A stretch of 64,000 nucleotides of DNA from positions 64,976,108 through 65,040,107 of the forward strand of contig CM037782.1 in NCBI GenBank assembly GCA_021229015.1, given 5' to 3'. Positions 1 to 29,710 of the stretch are shown piece by piece (position 1 is the stretch's first letter; the number at the start of each line of letters is the position of its first letter). A model generated the notes under the pieces. The model searched no databases, was not told the origin of the DNA, and saw only the letters and a list, made by a program, of their open reading frames with translations. Source of the DNA: Solen grandis. Its lineage: Eukaryota > Mollusca > Bivalvia > Adapedonta > Solenidae. A program made the translations under genes and the position numbers.

Positions 1-124
1 GTTTGTTCATATTTTGTTTGCAATGTTCATAGAGTTCAATAAAAGGCTAAAACTGATTTGATTTCTTGTTGTTTATCTTACACATTAACAATTGTGATAT
101 ATTCCCTCTCGAATATAGTTTGAT

Positions 125-140
125 GGCCCTGAAAAGGGCC
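125..140 (-). terminator. Histone-type 3' stem-loop of the RING gene
   Basis: Read on the minus strand this is GGCCCTTTTCAGGGCC, a perfect 6-bp stem with a TTTC loop, the form of the replication-dependent histone mRNA 3' hairpin. It lies 36 bases after the stop codon of the RING gene. About 13 bases further on (111-97) comes a purine-rich stretch, TTCGAGAGGGAATAT, in the place of a U7-snRNA-binding histone downstream element, then ACAATTGT. The same order follows three plus-strand genes in this cluster. That it directs histone-type processing is inferred. Confidence 0.8.
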
Positions 141-176
141 GTTTTTTGGGTTTTTGTGATCCTGAATTACTCGGAG

Positions 177-440
177 TCATCCTACTAACTCTGAATAATC
201 AGGGTCAAACCATATGCCATAATAGGCTGAGCGCACTGTAGGCCCATGTTTAGCGAAAACACAGGCAGGCCAGGCATACACTTGATAGGGTGCCCTACAA
301 AACGGGCACTTCTGAAGCCGTGCGAAGCATCTGACGCATACAATGTCCTGACATTGACACTGGTTTATGTGATATATATCCTCCTCCCTCTCCTCTAAAC
401 ACACACCACACTTTTCGAACCAGAGTTTTTGTTCGGACAT
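177..440 (-). CDS. Small NOT4-type (C4C4) RING-finger protein
   Basis: An 87-residue intronless open frame. Eight cysteines (C11, C14, C28, C30, C35, C38, C45, C48) are spaced x2-13-1-4-2-6-2, with PFCRAPY after the last pair. This is the all-cysteine C4C4 RING pattern best known from the CNOT4 E3 ligase, with a shortened sixth spacer. The domain fills residues 10-52 and the short tail is not recognisable. A TATA-like TATATAAG lies about 34 bases before the ATG on the minus strand, so the leader would be only a few bases long, and a histone-type hairpin follows the stop. An E2-binding or ubiquitin-ligase role is inferred from the fold alone. It shares a divergent promoter region with the gene at 690. 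It could be host-encoded or come from an integrated DNA virus or transposon; nothing here decides. Confidence 0.72.
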   Translation of the reverse strand: MSEQKLWFEKCGVCLEEREEDIYHINQCQCQDIVCVRCFARLQKCPFCRAPYQVYAWPACVFAKHGPTVRSAYYGIWFDPDYSELVG

Positions 441-689
441 TGTGATTTCATCCTTCTTTTTAAAAAAAAAACACTTATATAGTTATGAAAAAAAGTAGGT
501 CAGTAGGTCAATCCATCCCCAAATGTCAAGGCCGAAGACAATGCTATCCAACTTAGGTCAAGGTCGAACTTGATTCATTGGATGGAAATTACATTCTCTG
601 ATTGGTGTACGCTAACAGTAGAAAGTAGGTCAATCCGCCTCAAGACTATAAAAGCACACTGCATCGTATCATAATCCTACTATCCAACC
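441..689. promoter_or_regulatory. Divergent promoter region with duplicated GTAGGTCAATCC motif
   Basis: The 249 bases separate the RING gene (-) from the Q/P-rich gene (+). A TATATAAG box for the minus gene lies at 474-481 and a TATAAAA box for the plus gene at 647-653, followed by GCACACTGCATC. AAGTAGGTCAATCC occurs at 623-636, with a partly duplicated form at 493-514. The block from 493 to about 575, including GGCCGAAGACAATGCTAT and AGGTCAAGGT, recurs at 1810-1873 before the third plus-strand gene. Repetition before two genes suggests a shared control element; the factor is unknown. Confidence 0.6.
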
Positions 690-1163
690 ATGGAAAGCTA
701 CGTAACTTCTGATATCGTTAACAACGCCATACAGGCTGCTGATTTGTATGAGCTGACGACAGCTGCTAACCAGGCATCAGTGTCGTACACTCCGACTCCG
801 ATATACCAACCCAGCTACCAACCAACGTATCAACCTCAGCCTCCACCACACCAGCAGCAACCAGTACAGCAACAACAACCAGTGCAACAGCAACCGGCAG
901 CGCAGCCAGTAAATAATGTTGGACAATCTATTCTGAGGGAACTCAAAGAGGTGAACAACAACCTCATCAAATTGCAAAAGAGAATGGTAGAAGTGGAATG
1001 CCGTATCAAAATGAAAACAGACAAGCTGGTGGTGCCTATCACTTTCACTCCGGAAAATGTGGAAGCATCCAACAAACGTCCGCATGATGGTGGATCCCAT
1101 TCTAAGACTGGACTTGGAGCCCATTGTAAAGACATACAAAATTGCAAAAAGAGTAAGAAGTAG
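690..1163 (+). CDS. Unrecognised Q/P-rich coiled-coil protein with basic tail
   Basis: A 157-residue intronless frame; the ATG sits in a good context (ACCATGG) about 37 bases after a TATAAAA box. Residues 1-30 are mixed. Residues 33-78 are low complexity, rich in Y, Q and P (repeats such as YQPSYQPTYQPQ and poly-Q). Residues 80-110 form a charged amphipathic stretch (LRELKEVNNNLIKLQKRM) likely to be a coiled coil. The C terminus is basic and ends KKSKK, a possible nuclear signal. I do not recognise the family. The low-complexity arm plus coiled coil suggests a self-associating or scaffold protein, which is inference. A histone-type stem-loop begins 16 bases after the stop. Open frames on the other strand here are shadows of the low-complexity repeat. 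Confidence 0.65.
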   Translation: MESYVTSDIVNNAIQAADLYELTTAANQASVSYTPTPIYQPSYQPTYQPQPPPHQQQPVQQQQPVQQQPAAQPVNNVGQSILRELKEVNNNLIKLQKRMVEVECRIKMKTDKLVVPITFTPENVEASNKRPHDGGSHSKTGLGAHCKDIQNCKKSKK

Positions 1164-1179
1164 AGAAGAAAAAAACAAC

Positions 1180-1230
1180 GGCCCTTTTCAGGGCCAACCC
1201 AGATGTCTCGAAAGGACATATTTTTACAAT
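1180..1230 (+). terminator. Histone-type stem-loop, purine element and ACAATTGT
   Basis: 1180-1195 reads GGCCCTTTTCAGGGCC, followed at once by AACCCA, close to the ACCCA that follows histone hairpins. About 12 bases later is TCTCGAAAGGACAT (1206-1219), a purine-rich core placed like a histone downstream element, then ACAATTGT at 1227-1234. There is no AATAAA between the stop codon and the hairpin. Confidence 0.82.
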
Positions 1231-1263
1231 TGTCAAACCAAGTAAATAAAAGTATCAAACGAA

Positions 1264-1560
1264 ATGAATTCATGCCATTCGTTTTCAGACTGTGCTATGG
1301 ATAAGTCACATATAACTATCGACTGCATATCTGACATGGACAAAATAGAAGCCCGACGCCAACGTTCGCTTAAACTACAAGCCCGATACCAACGTACGCT
1401 TAAAATAACAACAACACTCAGGAGTATCATAGACAAATTGAGTGCATGTTACTTTCATGAACTATACTACGATGATATCTTAAATATCATTGAAGCACAT
1501 TTCATCACCATAGAACATGTTGAATACCTGCTGAAGAAAACTCATAGACAAATAGAGTAA
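1264..1560 (+). CDS. Unrecognised 98-residue basic helical protein
   Basis: An intronless frame of 98 codons; a second in-frame ATG at 1297 would give 87 residues. A TATA-like TAAATAAAAG at 1241-1250 lies about 14 bases before the first ATG. If that box is used, the second ATG is the more plausible start, since transcription would begin near 1272. Residues 28-50 are strongly basic with a repeated motif (RRQRSLKLQARYQRTLK); the rest is predicted helical with no Cys or His cluster. No family is recognised. The gene lies between two histone-type 3' ends, so it has its own transcription unit rather than sharing a messenger with the gene at 690. It ends 24 bases before its stem-loop. Confidence 0.55.
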   Translation: MNSCHSFSDCAMDKSHITIDCISDMDKIEARRQRSLKLQARYQRTLKITTTLRSIIDKLSACYFHELYYDDILNIIEAHFITIEHVEYLLKKTHRQIE

Positions 1561-1584
1561 CCACTACTCTGTGAAAAAAACAAC

Positions 1585-1637
1585 GGCCCTTATCAGGGCC
1601 AACCCAAATGTCTCGAAAGAGAATATACCTCAATTGT
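1585..1637 (+). terminator. Histone-type stem-loop with TATC loop
   Basis: 1585-1600 reads GGCCCTTATCAGGGCC: the same 6-bp stem, but loop TATC in place of TTTC. AACCCA follows, then TCTCGAAAGAGAATATA at 1611-1627 (a purine-rich GAAAGAG core) and CAATTGTC. The loop change with an intact stem argues for a maintained RNA structure rather than a fresh duplication. Confidence 0.8.
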
Positions 1638-1931
1638 CACCATTATTTTCAAATTCCATTCAAATTTTTTTTTCATTAAAAATATGATCCAATGTTTTAT
1701 AAAAATGTTACAAAAATGTTACAAAAATGTTACAAAAAAAAGTCATCACTACTACAAATTCGGCTTGAATTTTTTTTAATTTTACAGCAATTCTGATATG
1801 TCAATACAAAAGTAGGTCAATCCACCCCAATGTAAGGCCGAAACAATGCTATAACTCAGGTCAAGGTTAAACTTTCAAGGCTATAAAAGCGCACCGCATC
1901 AAGCATTCGGTCATATTCTCGCTGCACAACC
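1638..1931 (+). promoter_or_regulatory. AT-rich spacer and promoter of the third plus-strand gene
   Basis: 1640-1800 is AT-rich with three copies of an 11-base unit, AAAAATGTTAC, near 1700-1735. The promoter block follows: AAGTAGGTCAATCC at 1810-1823, GGCCGAAACAATGCTATA, CAGGTCAAGGTT, then TATAAAA at 1882-1888 and GCGCACCGCATC, matching the GCACACTGCATC after the TATA box at 647. The ATG is 44 bases after the TATA box. Confidence 0.6.
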
Positions 1932-2237
1932 ATGGAACAAATTCAGCAACTGAATGAATTTATCCACGAATTGATGGGGTTGATCGAACGACAACGCAAT
2001 GAGTGGAGACAACAGCAAGACCATATTGCAGAATACCATCTGGTTTTGTCAAACATGGTACATCAGATGATTTAAATATGCTCATGGAACATCAGGAGAT
2101 GTTGAGACAACACAACAAGATGAAGATGAAGATCATATGTTCATAGAACAACTTACAACGATGTCATCGTAATCAGTGACGATGAACACGATGTCACTGA
2201 AACCAAGCACGATGTGGACAATGTCACCGAAATCTAA
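1932..2237 (+). pseudogene. Broken small gene: helical N-part and SUMO-interaction-like acidic tail
   Basis: The frame opens at ACCATGG with 47 codons rich in Q, E and L (likely helical) and stops at 2073. Beyond it the coding signal moves between frames: a helical stretch in the next frame (about 2077-2130), an acidic DEDEDH stretch in the third, then back in the original frame an acidic tail from about 2154 containing DVIVISDDE. That motif has the form of a SUMO-interaction motif (hydrophobic core followed by acidic residues). The tail ends at TAA 2235-2237, 14 bases before the stem-loop, as an intact gene of this cluster would. At least two indels are needed to explain this; they may be true decay or assembly error. 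The first 47 codons alone could also be a real micro-protein. Confidence 0.5.
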
Positions 2238-2251
2238 AGAAGAAACAAAAC

Positions 2252-2304
2252 GGCCCTTTTCAGGGCCAACCCAAATGTCTCGAAAGGACATTTTACAATT
2301 GTCA
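2252..2304 (+). terminator. Histone-type stem-loop of the third plus-strand gene
   Basis: 2252-2267 reads GGCCCTTTTCAGGGCC, followed by AACCCAAATGTCTCGAAAGG and then TTTTACAATTGTC. Hairpin, spacer, purine core and palindrome match the unit at 1180 almost base for base. Confidence 0.82.
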
Positions 2305-2317
2305 TTTTTACAATTTT

Positions 2318-2515
2318 ACATAAATCTGTTTTCATATATAGTACCATTCGGTACTATAGATTCTGTTTTCATATAGAGTACCATTCGGTACTATAGATTC
2401 TGTTTTCATATAGAGTACCATTCGGTACTATAGATTTGGTACCATAAGTACCAAAAAAAAAAAATTTATGGTACCACGGTACCATAAAAAAAAAAATTTA
2501 TGGTACCTTGGTACC
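2318..2515. repeat. Palindromic tandem repeat with GGTACC-centred arms
   Basis: Three copies of a roughly 37-base unit (TTTTCATATAGAGTACCATT and CGGTACTATAGATTCTG) each carry an internal inverted pair, AGTACC...GGTACT. They are followed by two larger foldbacks in which ATTTATGGTACC and GGTACCATAAA flank poly-A stretches. The block ends near GGTACCATAGTGCC at 2511-2524 and directly follows the small-gene cluster. Confidence 0.75.
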
Positions 2516-4200
2516 ATAGTGCCACCCTATACTACTTACATGGACTCATTACATTTCCAAGCCATTACTTCCAGACATAAATAATCAAATTTAGGTAACA
2601 TTATCATGCTATAATAACACCTTATAGCTAACCGATATACAGACAGGAAATAAAAGTACACTACCGTTTATTTAACAAGGATGGGGGCATTTTAGATGCC
2701 TATGTTATGCTGATCACAAACGTCCGCTGATAATGTCCACCTATCTATACAAGATGTCATTAATAATATAGATGGTAGTGTTGTCTTAAAAATACGTCCC
2801 TGACACACATTATCTGATAATAACCGCTTAAGTTTAGTTATATCTGACAGGTGATATCCAGCTTTTAAGTCATAAACTATGACATAAATATATATGCAGA
2901 GTTTAGCAAACCTCGCTAATCTTTAGGCATTTCATTTTGGCATTAAATCCTGTATACGGTATGACCATGTGTGATTTTTATTTGTAAATTTTAAATAGTA
3001 GTGCAATTGCCGTCTAGATACCGTTGTATTAAAACGGGCCTCATTTCTAAGTAGTGCGCCCCGGCTCGATTCAGTATATTAATAAAATATCAATTTTCGA
3101 TTCAGTTTAGGTACACGAGTGAGGTAGAGTGGTCACCAGTATCGAACATTTTGTACTTTATAACATGCAAATTACATAATACCTGGTTAAACCTTTACTA
3201 TTTTAAGTTATTACCAGACACTGGTTCAACAGTAATTTACCGTCAACTTTCGTTCTCAGACTTCGATCATATGTTGGAATGGCAGTTAACTGTAAAGGTC
3301 ACCGGTAAATAGTATTAATATCATGATTTTATCAATATTTCTTTCTTCCTCATTCTCATAGTCGTAACAAAGTAGACTATCAAAACAGTGATCTGTGTCT
3401 AATTATTGTAATTGCCATTGTATTTGCTGCTAAACACAGGAAAATAGATACCGGGCTGGTTTATAATTTGACTAAGTATGATATAATGCCACTTGTCCAT
3501 GGTGCGATACCACAGTGAGGCAGTATTATATCAGTTCAATGCAGACAAAAGTCACCAACTGAATAAAATATGTTGTTGTGATATCTGAAACAAGCAAACA
3601 AACAAACGTACATCGATAATTATTGCTTTATTATATAAAAGTCCGTTAATATGAAAATGATTAGATGAAGAAAAAATGTTTACTCTTAAATGGTCCGTTT
3701 TTAAATTGCATGAAAACCGATGCTTTAGATATGAGGGAACACACGATTTCGATTCCTTTTTTATTCGCGTACAACTCTTTCGTACAAGGAATTCATACCT
3801 TACTATAATTATTTGAATAGATAACACACAGACTGACCGGTATAATAGAATAGTGTCGTAAAAATCATTTTCGGTGCATAGAAGCGTGTTTGATTGCAAT
3901 TCCTTCGGGCAGTTGTTGGCGTATATCCGCAATGTACGTTAGGAAAAATAGACGTTCCAAAACTGAACATTAACCATATTTTGGCCGTGTTCTCTTTTTC
4001 TATGTAACATTGCGTTAGGCGCGCTTCTTTTGCCATATATCCACACAACGTAATCAGCTTGAGGGCAATGTAGTCTAAGTCGAACAAACCATCGCATGAA
4101 TTCTTTATTGATTTTTATTGTTTGAGCAGAAATTGAAGATACACTGTCATATTGCTGCATTTATTTTCAATGTTACCATAGCAAACAAAAGAAACTAAAT
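2516..4200. other. AT-rich stretch without a recognisable gene
   Basis: Both strands were read. The longest open frame (3552-3932, -) has no recognisable motif and no coding character. I see no tRNA, exon or transposon end that I can support. Confidence 0.4.
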
Positions 4201-4212
4201 TAAACTAAAGAA

Positions 4213-5303
4213 AGTTGATGATGATTACAATGGTGATGATGATTACAATGGTGATGATGATTACAATGGTGATGATGATTACAATGGTGATGTTGATTAC
4301 AATGGTGATGATGATTACAATGATGATGATTACAATGGTGATGATGATTACAATGGTGATGTTGATTACAATGGTGATGATTACAATGATGATGATTACA
4401 ATGGTGATGATGATTACAATGGTGATGTTGATTACAATGGTGATGATGATTACAATGGTGATGATTACAATGATGTTGATTACAATGGTGATGATTACAA
4501 TGGTGATGATGATTACAATGGTGATGATTACAATGGTGTTGATTACAATGATGATGATTGAAATGATGATGATGATTACAATGGTGATGATTACAATGGT
4601 GATGATGATTACAATGGTGATTATTACAATGGTGATGATGATTACAATGGTGATGATTACAATGGTGATGATTGAAATGATGATGATGATTACAATGGTG
4701 ATGATTACAATGGTGATGATTACAATGGTGATGATGATTACAATGATGATGATTACAATGGTGATGAAATGATTATACATGATGATGAATGATGATGATT
4801 ACAATGGTGATGATTACAATGGTGATGATTTACAATGGTGATGATTACAATGATGATAGATATTACAATGGTGATGATTACAATTGATGATGATGATTGC
4901 AATGGTGATGATTACAATGGTGATGATTACAATGATGATGATGATTACAATGATGATGATTACAATGGTGATGTTGATTACAATGGTGATGATTACAATG
5001 ATGATGATTACAATGGTGATGATGATATGTGATTGATTACAATGGTGATGATGATTACAATGTGATGATGATTACAATGGTGATGATGATTACAATGGTG
5101 ATGATGATTACAATGGTGATGATGATTACAATGGTGATGATGATTACAATGGTGATGATTACAATGGTGATGATGATTACAATGGTGATGATGATTACAA
5201 TGGTGATGATTACAATGGTGATGATGATTACAATGGTGATGATGATTACAATGATGATGATTACAATGATGATGATGATTACAATGATGATGATGACTAC
5301 GAT
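4213..5303. repeat. 1.1 kb minisatellite of GATGATTACAATGGT units
   Basis: About 70 units of GATTACAATGGTGAT type alternate between 15 bases and 18 bases, with occasional 12-base and substituted forms (GTTGATTACAAT, GATTGAAATGAT). Because unit lengths are multiples of three and contain few stops, long open frames appear on both strands; they are artefacts of the repeat. Order is irregular, as expected from replication slippage. Confidence 0.95.
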
Positions 5304-6404
5304 GGTCCCTATATACCAAAACTGCAATGAAACTCGACGTAAACTACCATCTGACACACTCTACCTACCAAAGTGCCCGGTGCTTTGACCAAAAAAAATG
5401 TGTTTTAAAACGTAAAACAATTGACATAGCAAAACATTGCATCTGTTGCAATTCTAGTTTATTATTACGTCATATAATCAGCATATGATGTTAACACGCG
5501 ATCTCAATGTGTAAAAACAAATTTAAAAATAAGTACGACACCCAAGGTCGAATATATTTAATAGTCACACCATGAGTTTTAAAAACGTCATCATAAATAC
5601 GGAGAATTGTTTGAAAAACTTAATCAGTTTCCACCTGTAACGGTCTGATTGTAATTGTAAGCTTATGATATTTCATTGATTTACAAACACGTGTTTTGCA
5701 GTTATTTTGTTACTGTTGTTTTAATCGGACATCTTTTCTATAAGAAAATCTCGCCGGTTACCTGTACGTTTAACATCACCATTGGTAAGAATGAGAAATT
5801 TGTGAAAGATTGTTTATACCTTGCTATAATTAAGCATCGTTTACTGGTCTTGAATCTGGACTTCTATATGTTGTTATATGTGGGATTCAAGATAACAGAC
5901 AACCATGTTGTAGTAATGGATTGGACATTATTATCGCTGTCCTCCTCTGTTTATCAGGAGATGATAAAGCTGCACTGTCAAGTATTCAATTATCTGGTTG
6001 GACTTTAAAGAAAGTAAACATGATAAAATGTGCGCATTAGAGTGATTTAGAATTTTTAAAGATGACAAAAAATGTCAAATATCACCAGCATGTAGATTTC
6101 AAAGTTGTATATTATATATTATTATTTGTAAACCATTGTTTGTTATCATTACGGTGCTTGGGTTAGCTGTTTGACGGGTGCGTATTTGGATCAATCTTTA
6201 TTTTGATTATCTAAGTAAACCACATGCAACACGGGGAATCTCATACTGCTACTTATTATTACTGTTATTAAACAAAGTAATTTATATTAATATAACAATT
6301 AAAGTGACGTCTAAGTTTGCGCATGTGCCATACGCTACTTTAATTTGACAAAAAAATCACGCAAACGTAACCCTAATTTGAACATTACATGCAAAAGTCA
6401 TATG

Positions 6405-23500: not shown

Positions 23501-26500
23501 TTTCATGTGCAACAAGACCTGCTAGAGGTAATAAATGACTTAATGTTAAATATTGTGACACATGCCTTTATAGGGTAATGGTGTTCTTCCTCCCCTTTAC
23601 CTAGATTAGTGTCAAAATCTTGCCTGATTACACTTGCTTTTTTTGCTTATCACAAACGTCACAACATGCTGATGAATCAGATCTGTCACTTGGTTTGTAT
23701 CCAAAGTACTCCAACATAACTTCTCTCATGCACTTCGAGTCATTCTTGCAGTACTGAATTATGTTCTTCTCAATGCCAGGTCGATTGCTTCGAATGTCTG
23801 AACCATTATAATACAGAATGGATCTGCTTGGTAAACCATCACGCCCTGCTCTACCTGTCTCTTGGAAAAACTTTTCAATTGATGTTGGTGGTTTGTAATG
23901 AATAACACAACGAATGTTGGGGGCATTCAATCCCATTCCAAGAGCTACAGTTGCAAAAACGATTCTTATCCTAGATTTTTCCTTGCACAGCTCTGAAACT
24001 ATAAACTTTTTCATTCTGTCGGTATAATTCTGATGATATTGTGCAAATAATCTATTTTCTGGTATTTGTTCACCAATGTATTGGTTTTGTCCCATTTCTT
24101 TTTCAAAAAATGCATATGCATAGCTAATTACATGCGTGTCTGTATACATTATTGTAATAGGAAAACTGAGTTTTTTGTTTAGGAGTTCATTTAACATTGG
24201 CGGGAGAATTTCGTCCAAATGTTCCTGAGTACCTGTAGGTGGTCTTATACATTTACTGTATTTGATGTTGAATCTGTCTGGATTTCTTGACACAATTTTT
24301 GGATCCTTCATCTTCAGGCTTGCTATTATCTCAACCTGAGCTTTTGGTGAGGCTGTGGCCGTAAACACTAACACTGGGATGTCTGGAAAGTGAGCCAACA
24401 ATTGCTCTCCTATCTTGCTGAAGTCCTTTCGAAATTCTGAGCCCCTGTAAAATAAAAATATTAAATGTTTCAGAAAATCATCAAGAAGTATTACAGACTG
24501 AAAAGTGCAAGGATTCATGGGACTTTAGCAAACTACAGAGCCATCTTACATAGAACCAATGTGAATGGCCAAGTGAAGTCAAATGGCTATGAGTCCCACA
24601 AAGATTTTTGTTAACAGTTACCAGGTAGATATTTTTCAGTTCAGGCTAGTGCACTCAAGTTGTATTCTGGGACTAGCGTTTCATTTTGTGTGCAGAATAA
24701 TGCATGGTTGTAATGTTCGTAACCTAATTTGGAAATCATAGGCCTGATTTTCAATTACAAAGCGTCTGAATAATCCTGCCTTATAGTCTATACAATAGTA
24801 AATAGTTTTCAATTTTAGCTTTTGTTTGTTTTGTTGGGTTTAAAAGTCCCACTGACAGTATTTCAGTCATTTGGAGATGATGTCTACTTAAGACAGATAT
24901 AGTGCTGCCACACTGTAGTATCATGCCGTAGACATGTGGCATGATACCACACTCAGTCATGTTATTCTGACACCGGGCCAACCAGTTGTGCAACTTCCTT
25001 TATCTGCTGAGCGCCAAGCAAGGAAACTATAACACTTCCATTTTTTACGACTTTGGTAAGTCATGGCAGGGAATCGAACCCCAACCTCCCGCACCCGAGG
25101 TGGACACTCTAACCACAGGGCTGGTATTTTAGCTTTTGTGAAATAATTTTAAATAAACGTTACCAAAACGATATATGCAATGTCTGTAATGTCTTTAAAT
25201 TTATGTCAGTAATGTCTTTAAATTTATGTCAGACTGCCGAAACCATAACCTTTGAAAATATGTAAATCAACCATCCTTTTCACTTTAGGGGCCTTATCAT
25301 TGAACTGGCTTGTGAAACCTTTGGGTTGAATAACAAGATGGAACTGCTAGATCAGCTACCACAAAACTTTAAAAAACATGGAGCAAAAAACGGCGACAGG
25401 AATGGCTAGATGACAAAGTTCAACCCATTGTGGACCTATTACTCTGTCCATACTCTGTTCCAAGTAATGAGGACGTTCGACTGCGCTTGATCCACAGGGA
25501 TGTTCCCTATGATGTTAGTGTTCCTGCCAGACACCGTGGAGAAAGTGTTCAAATTCAGATTGACGGTAATTATCAACAAAATTTATGAATGCTGCGAGAT
25601 TACATAGCCTTTGAAAGACACAAGTAATCTGTTGAAATTATTTTTAGTCTTGCAACTTGTCTGATCCCAAGTTGAGTATTTAAGCAATTTAACTGTTAAT
25701 AATATTATGAGAGCTATGTGTAAAGTGGGGTGTTGGGAGATTCAGAACTTCAATCTGTCTCCAGTGGCCAAGTGATCAGAGTGTAAGCCTGGGGAAGCAG
25801 GAGGTTGCTGGTTCAGTCCCCACAGTGACATACAAAGCAGGCAAGGAAATGATATGATATACCTCTCTTGATTTTCACTCAGTAGATAAGTTCCGGACCA
25901 TTAAGCTGGTTTGAGTATAATGTGACGGGTGTGGTATCATGCCACATGTCTTAGTTATGATACTGCAGTCTGGCAAGATATCTGATGTAGATATAGTCTC
26001 AAAATTACTGGAATATTGTTGTTTGAGAACAACAATCAGATCATAAAACTTTAGCTGTAAATAGATTCCACTGTCTAATATTTTTATAAGAGTTTGTTCT
26101 TTACATGAAAAACTGTATTCTTTGATTATGCACATGTGTAATAATTCTTTTATTTTTTTATTTCAGGAGAGCCAATTCTTATCAAAGTTCCAGAACAAAG
26201 AGAAGGTCCTGTAGATCCAAGTGGGGACGATCTATATACATACAGTCTCAGCCTACTGAGGGCTGCTATGTACTTTACAGTGTTTCAGTATACAATCAAA
26301 TCAGGTGACATAGACACAATGACAATATTATTGAAGAGGTTTATTCCTCTCTTCATTGGCTTAACATCCTATAGATCAAAGTATGCTATTGAGTGCATTA
26401 ATTTTCTCACAAAAACTGAATGCGTACTATCGGAATATGAGAGTGTCCGAGTGAAACTTGGGGCCTTTGTTAATAAGAAAGGGCAAGCTGGTAAGAACAA

Positions 26501-26885
26501 GCCAGCTGACATGCAGCAAGAAAACAACATTAAACTGGTCAAAAATGTCATCAGGGGTCTTGGGGCAGGAAAAAGTGACAAAGCAATGGAGCGATCATCC
26601 AAAGCTGCCCCTGTTGTCAGTGAACTAATAGCAGTTATGAATAAGAAGGATGGCAAAAAAGACAAACATTCACAGAAATCATCAGCAGATGACATGGCTT
26701 TGCTTGCTACAAGAATGAGAGTCCTTCATCCATTCAAGCAAGAGGGGAGAAAATTTGCATCATTAAAGGATCTGCATGCAAATGTTCTTACAACTGTAAA
26801 TAAATTCAAATTATTAGAATTTATTGTCCGTCACAGTCGTCGTGCAATCAACAGATATGTGGTTGAAGAAGAAGACGTTGACTAA
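17548..26885 (+). CDS. DUF6589 protein with N-terminal zinc finger, nine exons
   Basis: Exons by frame and splice sites: 17548-18504, 18915-19064, 19526-19698, 20116-20251, 20925-21021, 23356-23527, 24474-24624, 25289-25565, 26167-26885; about 944 residues. Residues 22-69 hold two CxxC pairs (C22/C25, C66/C69), a likely zinc finger. The rest matches the DUF6589 layout: VDNIDGRIKAYQ (exon 2), PLGGDQLTR (exon 6), then EEMFH, ARIHGTLANYR (exon 7), and the C-terminal GDIDTMTILLKRFIPLF and FVNKKGQAGKNKPADMQQEN (exon 9). Three one-base losses are needed to keep frame: exon 6 near 23446, exon 7 near 24605 (a T run) and exon 8 near 25390 (an A run). Everything else is open and junction phases agree. 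DUF6589 is uncharacterised; the DNID, GDQLT and E-rich positions could form a D-D-E set, which is inference. It is interleaved with the antisense RecQ-like gene. Confidence 0.8.
22340..22545 (-). repeat. tRNA-headed SINE (family C), minus strand
   Basis: The minus strand reads GTGGTCCAGAGGTAACTTAT, then GGTTGTGGGTTCAAACCC, TACTGGTCCAATGCAGGAAC and a tail GTTAGAACTTGTTTTCC. The tail is shared with families B and C elsewhere (33265, 37200, 51211, 63498). Confidence 0.7.
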
Positions 26886-29710
26886 AAAGTCTTGGGACCT
26901 CATAAGAATGGATGTTGTACATGTGTAGCACATTTTTAGTTTGAATTTCTTTTCAAATTCTAATATTCATATTAGAGCTGAGTACAAGGGCACACAAACT
27001 ATAAAATTCATTGTCATTGCATACTGTTCCATAAGTCGCCTTTGGTTTCATATGTAGTAGAAAACAACAACCTGCTGAAATTTCTTATTTTTTATAGAAT
27101 TTGTAATTGTGAATTTTTTTTACCATTTGGCTGACCTAGTGGATATATTCTTTGTATATAACATAAATCACCACACTTAGGCATTTGCATTGTGTTAATA
27201 TCCCCTTCCTGAGACCAACCCTACTACCCATTTGGTCTGTATTTCACCTTTGTTGGAAAAGCTATTGACAGATGCGATAATGGCTGTACATGTATTTATT
27301 GATTATTGAAACGGAAAAAAAAATTGGGTTTCAGAACAGGGGGTCTCTGGTGCTCAGCCACCATATTTTGCTTGATGTTGTGATATGAGAAAAGTGTAAA
27401 TTTTATCAAAGCAACATTTGTTAATCTCAACCGATAATATTGTTGATTTCATGTAGAGATTTTTTACACAATTATGTTAAATTATTTTATTTTAATGAAT
27501 TTGGTAAATGCCATCAGCTATGATTATTCGTGGTTTTAGGTGGAATAATTATAGAATGATTATAGAATGACAATATCTATAATTTGACAAGCTCAGCATT
27601 GAACAAAAAGATTACACAAGTAAAATTCACATTAAGCAACAGAAGCATATAACAAAGTTAAGTTTGCCATCAGCTATGATTATTCGTGGTTTAAGCAGTC
27701 AAGTTAAACCCGTGTTTTATTAAAAGTCAGTTTTTAATATTACCAATTTTAATTAGCAATTTTTATGATAAACCCTTGTTTAGGGACCACCTCCATTAAG
27801 CAGTCTTGTTCTTTTGAATCATTTCTTGAAGAAGATTTTACTGCATACTTCTTTAATTCACATTTTGAATGGTTGTTAACTAGAATCATTAACAAAGTTT
27901 ATCATATAATTTTTGCATGTTTTATTTTTTTATTCATAACACTCTCTTTTCAAAAATAACAAGCCAAAATAAGGTCAAAGAGTGAGAGGTCCTGGAATGA
28001 TTTGCCTCTGTAACGGTGAGGGTTTAATAGTTTTCTTTACACTCACTCAGCACCCAATGGTGTCGGTTCGATTCCATGCAAGGTCATTTGGATTTACATG
28101 TTGGGAAGCCCAACAACTGGCTTGTGGTTGGTTAGTGGTTCTACTCAGATGCTATTGAGCATTTCGGGTCTTCCTCCACCTGTAATAAGCTGGATGTCGC
28201 TATATGACTGAAATACTATCCCAGCTACAAGAAACTCAAAAAACTCATCCTCTACCCTACTGAAGCTCCTATGGGTACAGTATCAAATTCACTTAAGCAG
28301 CACTGCACTTGTTTTGTGAAGATAATTGGAAGTGCAAATGGTACATTGTTATCTTCAAACAAGTTAAAACATCATAAGTTACATGTCCGTCTATGGACAG
28401 AACAATAAATACTTGGGTTATTTTTGTTGAGGTCATTTTGAACACTTGACTTGGTAAACTAGACTTTCTTTACTCAACTCGGACACTCTTCCAAGTCACC
28501 ATAAAGTTTGTCCCAGTTTACATCTCTAGAACATACATCTGTTGGGGCCACTGTGGGCTAGCGGTTACAGTCATGGACTACAAGCGCCACATCGCTGTGG
28601 GTTCGAATCCTTGAAGGGACTTTGAATTTTTCATGTGAGGAAGCCTTGCAGTAGGTTGGCGGTTTCACTGTTGCCTCTGTATACTCAGGGTCTTCCTCTA
28701 CCTGTAATTGAATAACTGGATGTCCCTACAGGAATGATATAGTGTTGCAGCAACAGTTAACACAACAACATACATCAGTCTGTCACATTACTTTGCTTAC
28801 ATACAATTCATATTTAATTATATCAAAAAAACTTTGTGTTACTGCTGAAAAACTGTATTTCTAAACACTAATTAATAATATACCTCGTGGTTTTACAAAG
28901 GTTTGATTTCCCTCAAAACTGGAGGTAATAAAGACCAAATTGGAGTAATAATTATAAATTCCCACACAAGGTCTTTAAGATCACTGATACTGTCATGAGT
29001 TTCTCCACCAAGTAAATGACTATTAAGTCAGTCCTATAGAAAGAAAGAGAGAGAGAGAAACATGCCCTTTCAAATACATACTCTGAAAAAAAAATCTGAA
29101 GTATCAGAATCTGAAAAAAGTACAATACCAGGTAAAGAAACTAAATCTGCCAAATTTACACTTACCACTCCAATATCATATGTGCCTCATCAACTGCAAT
29201 GCATGATAACAGTTGTTGAGTTTCCATTCGACGGAGAATATTAGTCCCATGTTTGCTGCTAAGCAAGGCCTCTGGGTGGGCATATACTAATGGGTACTTC
29301 CCAGATACAACGTCTTCCAGAGGCACATTTAATACTCCGACCTCCGACACACACTCATCGTCACTGGTGTCAGAATCATGATCTTCGCCCTCTGGTCTGA
29401 CTGTCTGGGCAGATTCTCCAGTGAAATCTAGATAGCAAGCATTTACACCAAGCTTTTGTAAAGAGTTGATTTGGTCCATCATTATGCTGTTCAGTGGCGT
29501 CAGAATCAAACACACAGAATGCATCAGATCATACCTTTCTTTCAGTACGTATGGTGCCAACTGGTAAATGAGGCTTTTTCCATAGCCAGTAGGCAATATG
29601 GCCATTGTGTCTTTTTTCTCAATAATGTTTAGTAGGCATTCCATTTGAGCATCCTTAATAGGATGCAGAAATCCCAAACTTTTAGCGACTCGTCTGACTG
29701 TATCCGCCAT
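23628..29710 (-). CDS. RecQ-like DNA helicase, two exons, 453 residues
   Basis: Exon 1, 29710-29166, and exon 2, 24444-23628, join in frame to give one undamaged 453-residue protein. The helicase motifs are in order: Q22 of motif 0, Walker A ILPTGYGKS (38-46), motif Ia LTPLNSIMMDQ, DEAH at 174-177 directly at the splice junction (ILEW|GSEFRKDF, the RecQ EWGHDFR position), TATAS (motif III), VALGMGLNAPNIRCVIHY (motif V) and QETGRAGRDG (motif VI). A short Cys tail (C-x-EVM...ACCDVC) fits the RecQ zinc-binding region. There is no winged-helix or HRDC domain, so it is shorter than BLM or WRN. An acidic insert (GEDHDSDTSDDE) precedes motif II. 3'-5' helicase activity is expected from the family. 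The single 4.7 kb intron contains three exons of the opposing DUF6589 gene. Confidence 0.88.
24880..25130 (-). repeat. Family D SINE, minus strand
   Basis: The minus-strand tRNA-like head GTTAGAGTGTCCACCTCGG and GGGGTTCGATTCCC is followed by the core shared with 13790-14022 (GACACCGGGCCAACCAGTTG on the plus strand). It sits in a DUF6589 intron. Confidence 0.75.
25760..26010 (+). repeat. Family D SINE, plus strand
   Basis: Head AGTGGCCAAGTGATCAGAGTG and GCTGGTTCAGTCCCC, then the shared core TGTGGTATCATGCCACATGT and GATACTGCAGTCTGG. Located in the intron between DUF6589 exons 8 and 9. Confidence 0.65.
26886..27990. other. DUF6589 3' flank inside the RecQ-like intron
   Basis: AT-rich, with no further exon recognised. 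A direct duplication of CCATCAGCTATGATTATTCG occurs at about 27510 and 27667. No clear polyadenylation site can be singled out. Confidence 0.4.
27995..28233 (+). repeat. Family A SINE, diverged
   Basis: Contains GTCGGTTCGATTCCATGC, CAACTGGCTTGTGGTTGGTT and ATATGACTGAAATACTATCC, in family A order. Confidence 0.75.
28547..28770 (+). repeat. Family A-related SINE
   Basis: Head GGGGCCACTGTGGGCTAGCG and GTGGGTTCGAATCCTTGAAG, then TTTTTCATGTGAGGAAGCC and TCTTCCTCTACCTGTAATTG. The end after the core is diverged. Confidence 0.7.

Follow-up and report, generated by a model that had tools for sequence, protein, structure and literature searches.

Histone-type 3′ signals on the accessory genes of a Polinton/Maverick element in Solen grandis

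How might genes that encode no histone come to end in the hairpin of replication-dependent histone mRNAs? The question is raised by a 64,000-nucleotide stretch of the razor clam Solen grandis (assembly GCA_021229015.1, contig CM037782.1, positions 64,976,108 to 65,040,107; here called the window), the first 2.3 kb of which were described in an earlier note as four small intronless genes, each closed by a histone-type hairpin and belonging perhaps to a virus or mobile element that borrows the host histone signal. The mobile element was found: the element that holds the hairpin block is a Polinton/Maverick, and the three-part signal that follows its accessory genes also follows the histone genes of the host. 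A fifth accessory gene, with a fifth hairpin, lies outside the window at the left end of the element. We think it likely, at a probability of roughly 85%, that the five genes use the host SLBP/U7 histone processing pathway, a reading drawn from sequence.

Hairpins and the host histone signal

When the window was searched for GGYYYTTWTCARRRCC with up to one mismatch allowed, four matches were obtained, all with 0 mismatches and all within positions 125 to 2267, compared to a mean of 0.11 in 100 shuffles, none of which reached 4. Perfect hairpins of histone form likewise numbered four, versus a mean of 0.03 and a maximum of 1 in 60 first-order Markov simulations. Rfam analysis of bases 1 to 6000 returned the four hairpins, h1 to h4, as the top four matches, all to RF00032 (Histone3), with scores of 34.8, 31.7, 28.8, and 31.0 bits, respectively, and E values of 2.3e-7 to 3.9e-5. 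Only h1 passed the family cutoff of 34, but 3 of 11 host histone matches also fell below it (31.1 to 32.5 bits, within a host range of 31.1 to 37.9), and thus the low scores of h2, h3, and h4 are not telling by themselves. Minimum-energy folding gave a 6-bp stem and a 4-nt loop in all four 56-nt contexts, with an extra helix in two, and the folding z-scores of the contexts ranged from −1.3 to −2.7. h1 is on the minus strand (125..140) and starts 36 nt past the stop codon of gene 1, and the others are on the plus strand, where h2 (1180..1195) starts 16 nt past the gene 2 stop, h3 (1585..1600), with a TATC loop, starts 24 nt past the gene 3 stop, and h4 (2252..2267) starts 14 nt past the last stop of gene 4. 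A single module is repeated at h2, h3, and h4 (88 to 92% identity over 48 to 75 bp), and the four hairpins are therefore not independent occurrences. The spacer that follows h1 is identical to the other spacers at only 5 of 14 positions, while the h1 hairpin itself is undiverged.

Each hairpin was followed by the same two elements. GARAG began 14 nt past the stem at all four, such that the purine-rich element of the earlier note was present throughout but started farther on than the 12 or so bases proposed. CAATTG began 30, 31, 30, and 28 nt past the stems of h1 to h4, respectively, in agreement with the CAATTGT motif described there. The individual sequences were GAGAGGG and CAATTG for h1 (86..124, minus strand) and, on the plus strand, GAAAGGA and CAATTGT for h2 (1196..1233), GAAAGAG and CAATTGT for h3 (1601..1637), and GAAAGGA and CAATTGT for h4 (2268..2302). 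No AATAAA was found between stop codon and hairpin in any of the four window genes, as had been noted before.

To what extent this arrangement is that of the host was apparent from the S. grandis histone genes. A genome search with PF00125 gave 37 matches; the majority form a tandem array (C3:50914698-50956888), and a smaller array lies at C1:50505770-50516761. In two stretches that together hold all five histone types (L083 and L084; H4 was identified from its frame in L084), every type had a perfect hairpin at the gene end, a purine run of the GAAAGG or GAAAAG type at +12 or +13 after the hairpin, and, at +29 to +33, a motif that agrees with AATTGTC at 6 or 7 of its 7 positions, for which the background is approximately 0.01 for a match of at least 6 in a 6-position slot. 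After the five element hairpins, the purine element lay at +14 and the AATTGTC-like motif lay at +29 to +32. Because host histones carry the AATTGTC-like motif, CAATTGT, which was unexplained from the window alone, is part of the host histone 3′ region, and the element therefore carries all three parts of the signal. The motif some 30 nt past host histone hairpins is not in the Rfam consensus.

The carrier element and its copies

The hairpin block occupies the right part (1..2536) of a 16,965-bp Polinton/Maverick (C6:64961679-64978643), both ends and the target duplication of which were found and the remainder of which lies left of the window. The right terminal inverted repeat (2240..2536) includes a GTACC palindrome array as well as h4, and it is followed by the right copy of a 6-bp target-site duplication, TACATG (2537..2542), the identical left copy of which precedes the left end of the element. 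The palindrome array had been considered as an origin, an idea that was dropped, as the array sits in the terminal repeat. The two terminal repeats are 97.7% identical over 300 columns, and the left one holds the fifth hairpin (C6:64961951, minus strand). h4 and the fifth hairpin are thus one sequence present in both repeats, each facing outward. Both ends were found in 10 of the 11 copies tried, the window copy included, and the right end of the 11th was not found. All ten began with AGTAGT and were flanked by 6-bp duplications identical on both sides; since the flanks and duplication of copy c1 are also those of c15, the ten represent nine independent insertion sites.

The core genes were read in four separate pieces, each from another copy. 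They include a putatively protein-primed type B DNA polymerase, matched above the cutoff in two of the copies (DNA_pol_B_2, E values of 1.2e-14 and 1.5e-25); an integrase with a chromodomain (rve, 6.3e-13; Chromo, 4.4e-9; above cutoffs); a packaging-type ATPase (Pox_A32, 4.1e-6, above the cutoff); and an adenovirus protease-like frame with a weak match below the cutoff (Peptidase_C5, 0.0046). Frames of 409 and 280 amino acids (aa) matched no Pfam family; by eye, they are candidates for the double jelly-roll capsid proteins of such elements. Near the left end, a gene on the minus strand encodes a 173-aa zinc-knuckle (CCHC) protein (L054:1155-1676; E value, 1.6e-15). None of the 12 core-region frames, the zinc-knuckle gene among them, had a hairpin within 150 nt, and A(A/T)TAAA was found with two of the 12, the zinc-knuckle and protease-like genes. 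An AATAAA in the window (38..43, plus strand), facing gene 1, was assigned to the protease-like gene as its poly(A) signal because that gene in another copy (L057) has AATAAA 94 nt past its stop. The lack of hairpins on core frames, together with the AATAAA on the last core gene, points to two classes of 3′ end within one element, perhaps early and late.

The exact hairpin occurred 1,520 times in the 1.324-Gb genome (737 forward and 783 reverse), and the reversed-pattern control occurred 0 times in either orientation. Among the first places listed, on contig C1, many of the hairpins formed sets of up to five: h1 lay on one strand, h2 to h4 came next on the opposite strand, all within approximately 2.4 kb, and a fifth hairpin lay some 14 kb past h1. 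At least six sets had five exact hairpins with the fifth 14.2 to 14.4 kb away, and one set had it 9.1 kb away. The earlier note had held that a hairpin block dispersed away from genes would count against processing. The hairpins are indeed dispersed, because the whole element is dispersed, but they remained beside the element's genes in those copies that were read; a simple dispersed hairpin repeat was rejected. Moreover, for 22 hairpins at 17 further loci, mostly outside full sets, GARAG lay at 13 to 16 nt in 19 and CAATTG lay at 28 to 32 nt in 17.

Conservation was compared per site in copies with at least two other exact hairpins, picked by eye from the list, such that some bias remains in the values. 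h1 was identical in 15 of 15 copies, with a difference per base of 0.000 where its upstream flank had 0.043 and its spacer had 0.059, and h3 was perfect in 16 of 16 (15 with a TATC loop and 1 with TTTC), with 0.008 versus 0.088 upstream. h2 was exact in 14 of 19 copies (0.046 versus 0.049 upstream), and h4 was exact in 13 of 19 (0.070 versus 0.074). The CAATTGT motif differed by 0.000, 0.030, 0.000, and 0.063 at h1 to h4, respectively, and GARAG past h1 in other copies began at 13 nt in 10 of 18 and at 14 nt in 7 of 18.

Outside the clam, hairpin scans of IMG/VR returned 2, 8, and 13 overlapping stretches, 17 in all, with one match each, which were taken as chance; none of the 17 had GARAG or CAATTG within 60 nt. 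The hairpin with its downstream block gave 0 matches in viral contigs and 0 in genome_contigs, and the promoter module described below gave 0 matches.

Accessory genes and their promoters

Genes 1 to 3 were open, with products of 87, 157, and 98 aa, but gene 4 was frame broken in the window copy and the fifth gene lay outside, so that the earlier count of four small genes held for three. That they are intronless is suggested by their open frames. Ratios of nonsynonymous to synonymous differences (pN/pS) are raw values over all pairs of open copies, which share ancestry; for genes 1 to 3, 20 right ends including that of the window were used, with one duplicate (L034) removed, and for gene 5 duplicates were kept. 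Gene 1 (177..440, minus strand) encodes a RING-like protein that matched Pfam RING models at E values of 1.9e-4 to 0.018, all below cutoff, and the BIRC7 RING structure 4auq at 0.001; its single-sequence structure model had a mean predicted local distance difference test score (pLDDT) of 37, too poor for use. It was open in 16 of 20 right ends with a pN/pS of 0.16 over 15, and we therefore conclude that it is a maintained protein under purifying selection. Gene 2 (690..1163, plus strand), for a Q/P-rich protein with a lysine-rich end, was open in 15 of 20 (pN/pS of 0.85 over 14). Gene 3 (1264..1560, plus strand), whose product is 87 aa if counted from the second Met, was open in 14 of 20 (1.21 over 13), and its structure model, with a mean pLDDT of 59, was likewise too poor for use. 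Gene 3 also contains 2.2 repeats of a 30-bp unit (1342 to 1407). Gene 5, which ends with the fifth hairpin, was open in 10 of 13 pieces (pN/pS of 1.39) and matched no family at an E value of ≤0.01.

Gene 4 (1932..2237, plus strand) has a 47-aa first piece and a later piece that reads DVIVISDDEHD, which we take to resemble a SUMO-interaction motif. Nineteen copies were searched with its exact N-terminal words; besides the 47 aa of the window, the longest frame was 119 aa in 2 and 72 to 82 aa in 3, with none in 13. Variants of these words escape an exact search, and at other loci, frames of 84, 95, and 116 aa precede the hairpin. No similarity was seen between gene 2 and the first piece of gene 4.

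The earlier statement that no histone is encoded agreed with a Pfam search in which genes 1 to 3 had no histone match at an E value of ≤1, and histone relics as the identity of these genes were rejected on that ground. Homologues of genes 1 to 3 were absent from the protein database, where one search gave 681 candidates, none at ≤1e-3, and another gave 1 candidate, with none at ≤0.1. Gene 1 had no match in viral contigs. In PHROGs, genes 1 and 3 had no match and gene 2 had eight weak ones (best E value, 0.0068), taken as compositional.

Genes 1 and 2 diverge from a shared promoter region (441..689) that contains AGGTCA repeats, CTGATTGG, TATAAAAG at 647, and, on the minus strand before gene 1, TATATAAG. 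A promoter module precedes gene 4 (1811..1900, plus strand); its bases 1811 to 1874 are 87% identical to 502 to 571, and TATAAAAG recurs at 1882. TATA boxes were seen for genes 1, 2, and 4. Six AGGTCA half-sites, all on the plus strand, lie within the two promoter regions (497 to 632 and 1814 to 1863) and presumably resemble nuclear-receptor sites.

Elsewhere in the window, a 1.1-kb (TGATGATGATTACAATGG)n satellite spans 4216 to 5306. A RecQ-like helicase in two pieces (23628 to 24518 and 29162 to 29710, minus strand), with a DUF6589 frame between them (26268 to 26885, plus strand), is perhaps another mobile element.

Possible use of the host pathway and relation to known systems

Several observations weigh against processing through the histone pathway. 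AATAAA at 1245, past h2, and ATTAAA at 1675, past h3, could serve as backup signals; h2 and h4 are no better conserved than their flanks; the TTTC and TATC loops of the element differ from the TTTT of four host histone types, though the loop of H1 (GGTCCTTTTCAGGACC) is TTTC; and genes 2, 3, and 5 show no visible protein-level constraint, evolving either unconstrained or fast. The two poly(A) signals and the variable h2 and h4 would suit signals that were captured from host histone genes, spread by duplication, and are now relics on mRNAs polyadenylated farther on. That explanation is improbable, as h1 and h3 are conserved beyond their flanks, the h1 hairpin has stayed intact next to a diverged spacer, and AATAAA was absent both downstream of h1 on the minus strand and downstream of h4 before base 2600.

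The variability of h2 and h4 would also be expected if the hairpins acted in DNA, as end-recognition or packaging marks that merely resemble the histone signal, and the location of h4 and the left hairpin within terminal repeats is consistent with such a role. The three other hairpins, however, are internal, on the sense strand, and just past stop codons, and a DNA mark would have no need of a purine element and an AATTGTC motif that match host genes at histone-like spacing; we regard DNA marks as quite improbable. A host orphan gene cluster, to which the lack of homologues could point, is refuted by the high copy number, by the terminal repeats and the target duplications, and by the polymerase and integrase genes, and we give it next to no credence. 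Processing by the host SLBP/U7 pathway is the reading that we retain.

Under SLBP/U7 processing, transcription of the accessory genes would start at promoters of their own, the hairpin would be bound by SLBP, and the U7 small nuclear ribonucleoprotein would pair with the GAAAGG-type element, with TCGAAAGG and AATTGTC as candidate pairing partners of the U7 5′ end. CPSF73 would then cut between hairpin and purine element to yield poly(A)-less mRNAs, mainly in S phase; both the poly(A)-less ends and the timing are predictions from the signal. As the terminal repeats include both h4 and the left hairpin, the last gene at each end would have an outward-facing terminator, and the pair would stop transcription within the repeats. 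For a DNA element that replicates, the gain could be S-phase timing and independence from polyadenylation, and the RING-like protein and the SUMO-interaction-like motif of gene 4 might act early against host ubiquitin and SUMO pathways, although early or late use and the protein functions are conjecture. With more reserve, we favor a broader proposal, namely, that SLBP and U7 allow a Polinton lineage to express a whole gene class in S phase as histone-type mRNAs that lack poly(A), with terminators in its terminal repeats and core genes with ordinary 3′ ends, as a replication-coupled early program. Use of the host form of the signal by such a multi-copy, virus-like element would show how a DNA-copying element can time its own genes to S phase, and the copies would offer natural variants for testing SLBP and U7 requirements.

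The signal is also carried by a second repeat (L068 and L076; C1:45170826 and 45183603, minus strand), in which a frame ending HIGKDGVHLTVPGYRAVLRRIKSIP is followed by the same hairpin and by ACCCA. A purine run lies at +12 and CAATTGTC lies at +32, and the hairpin scores 36.9 bits in Rfam. A 109-aa piece had no Pfam match at an E value of ≤0.1; by eye, the frame looks SGNH-like. With two repeats bearing one signal, it may be that mobile elements exploit the histone pathway repeatedly.

Among the matches listed in open-access literature, titles and abstract openings held no report of histone-type 3′ ends on nonhistone or Polinton genes, and we know of no Polinton with histone 3′ signals. Histone genes of Hydractinia and Lucina pectinata have a stem-loop near the stop and a purine-rich element (PMC5011920, PMC6210712), which in Lucina pectinata occurs in some genes only and varies in position (PMC6210712); unlike the ends described here, those belong to histone genes. 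Like metazoan replication-dependent histone genes (RF00032), the element's genes end in a hairpin with a purine element and a motif like AATTGTC, spaced almost as in the host histones; unlike them, genes 1 to 3 have no histone match, and the loop is TTTC or TATC rather than the TTTT of four of the five host types. The element resembles Polinton/Maverick elements of the adintovirus type in its 16,965-bp length, within their usual 15 to 20 kb; in its inverted repeats, which start with AG; in the 6-bp target duplication; and in a gene content of polymerase B, a retroviral-type rve-chromodomain integrase, a packaging-type ATPase, and a protease-like gene. It differs from them in that five accessory genes end with the host histone 3′ signal, and two of those signals lie in the terminal repeats.

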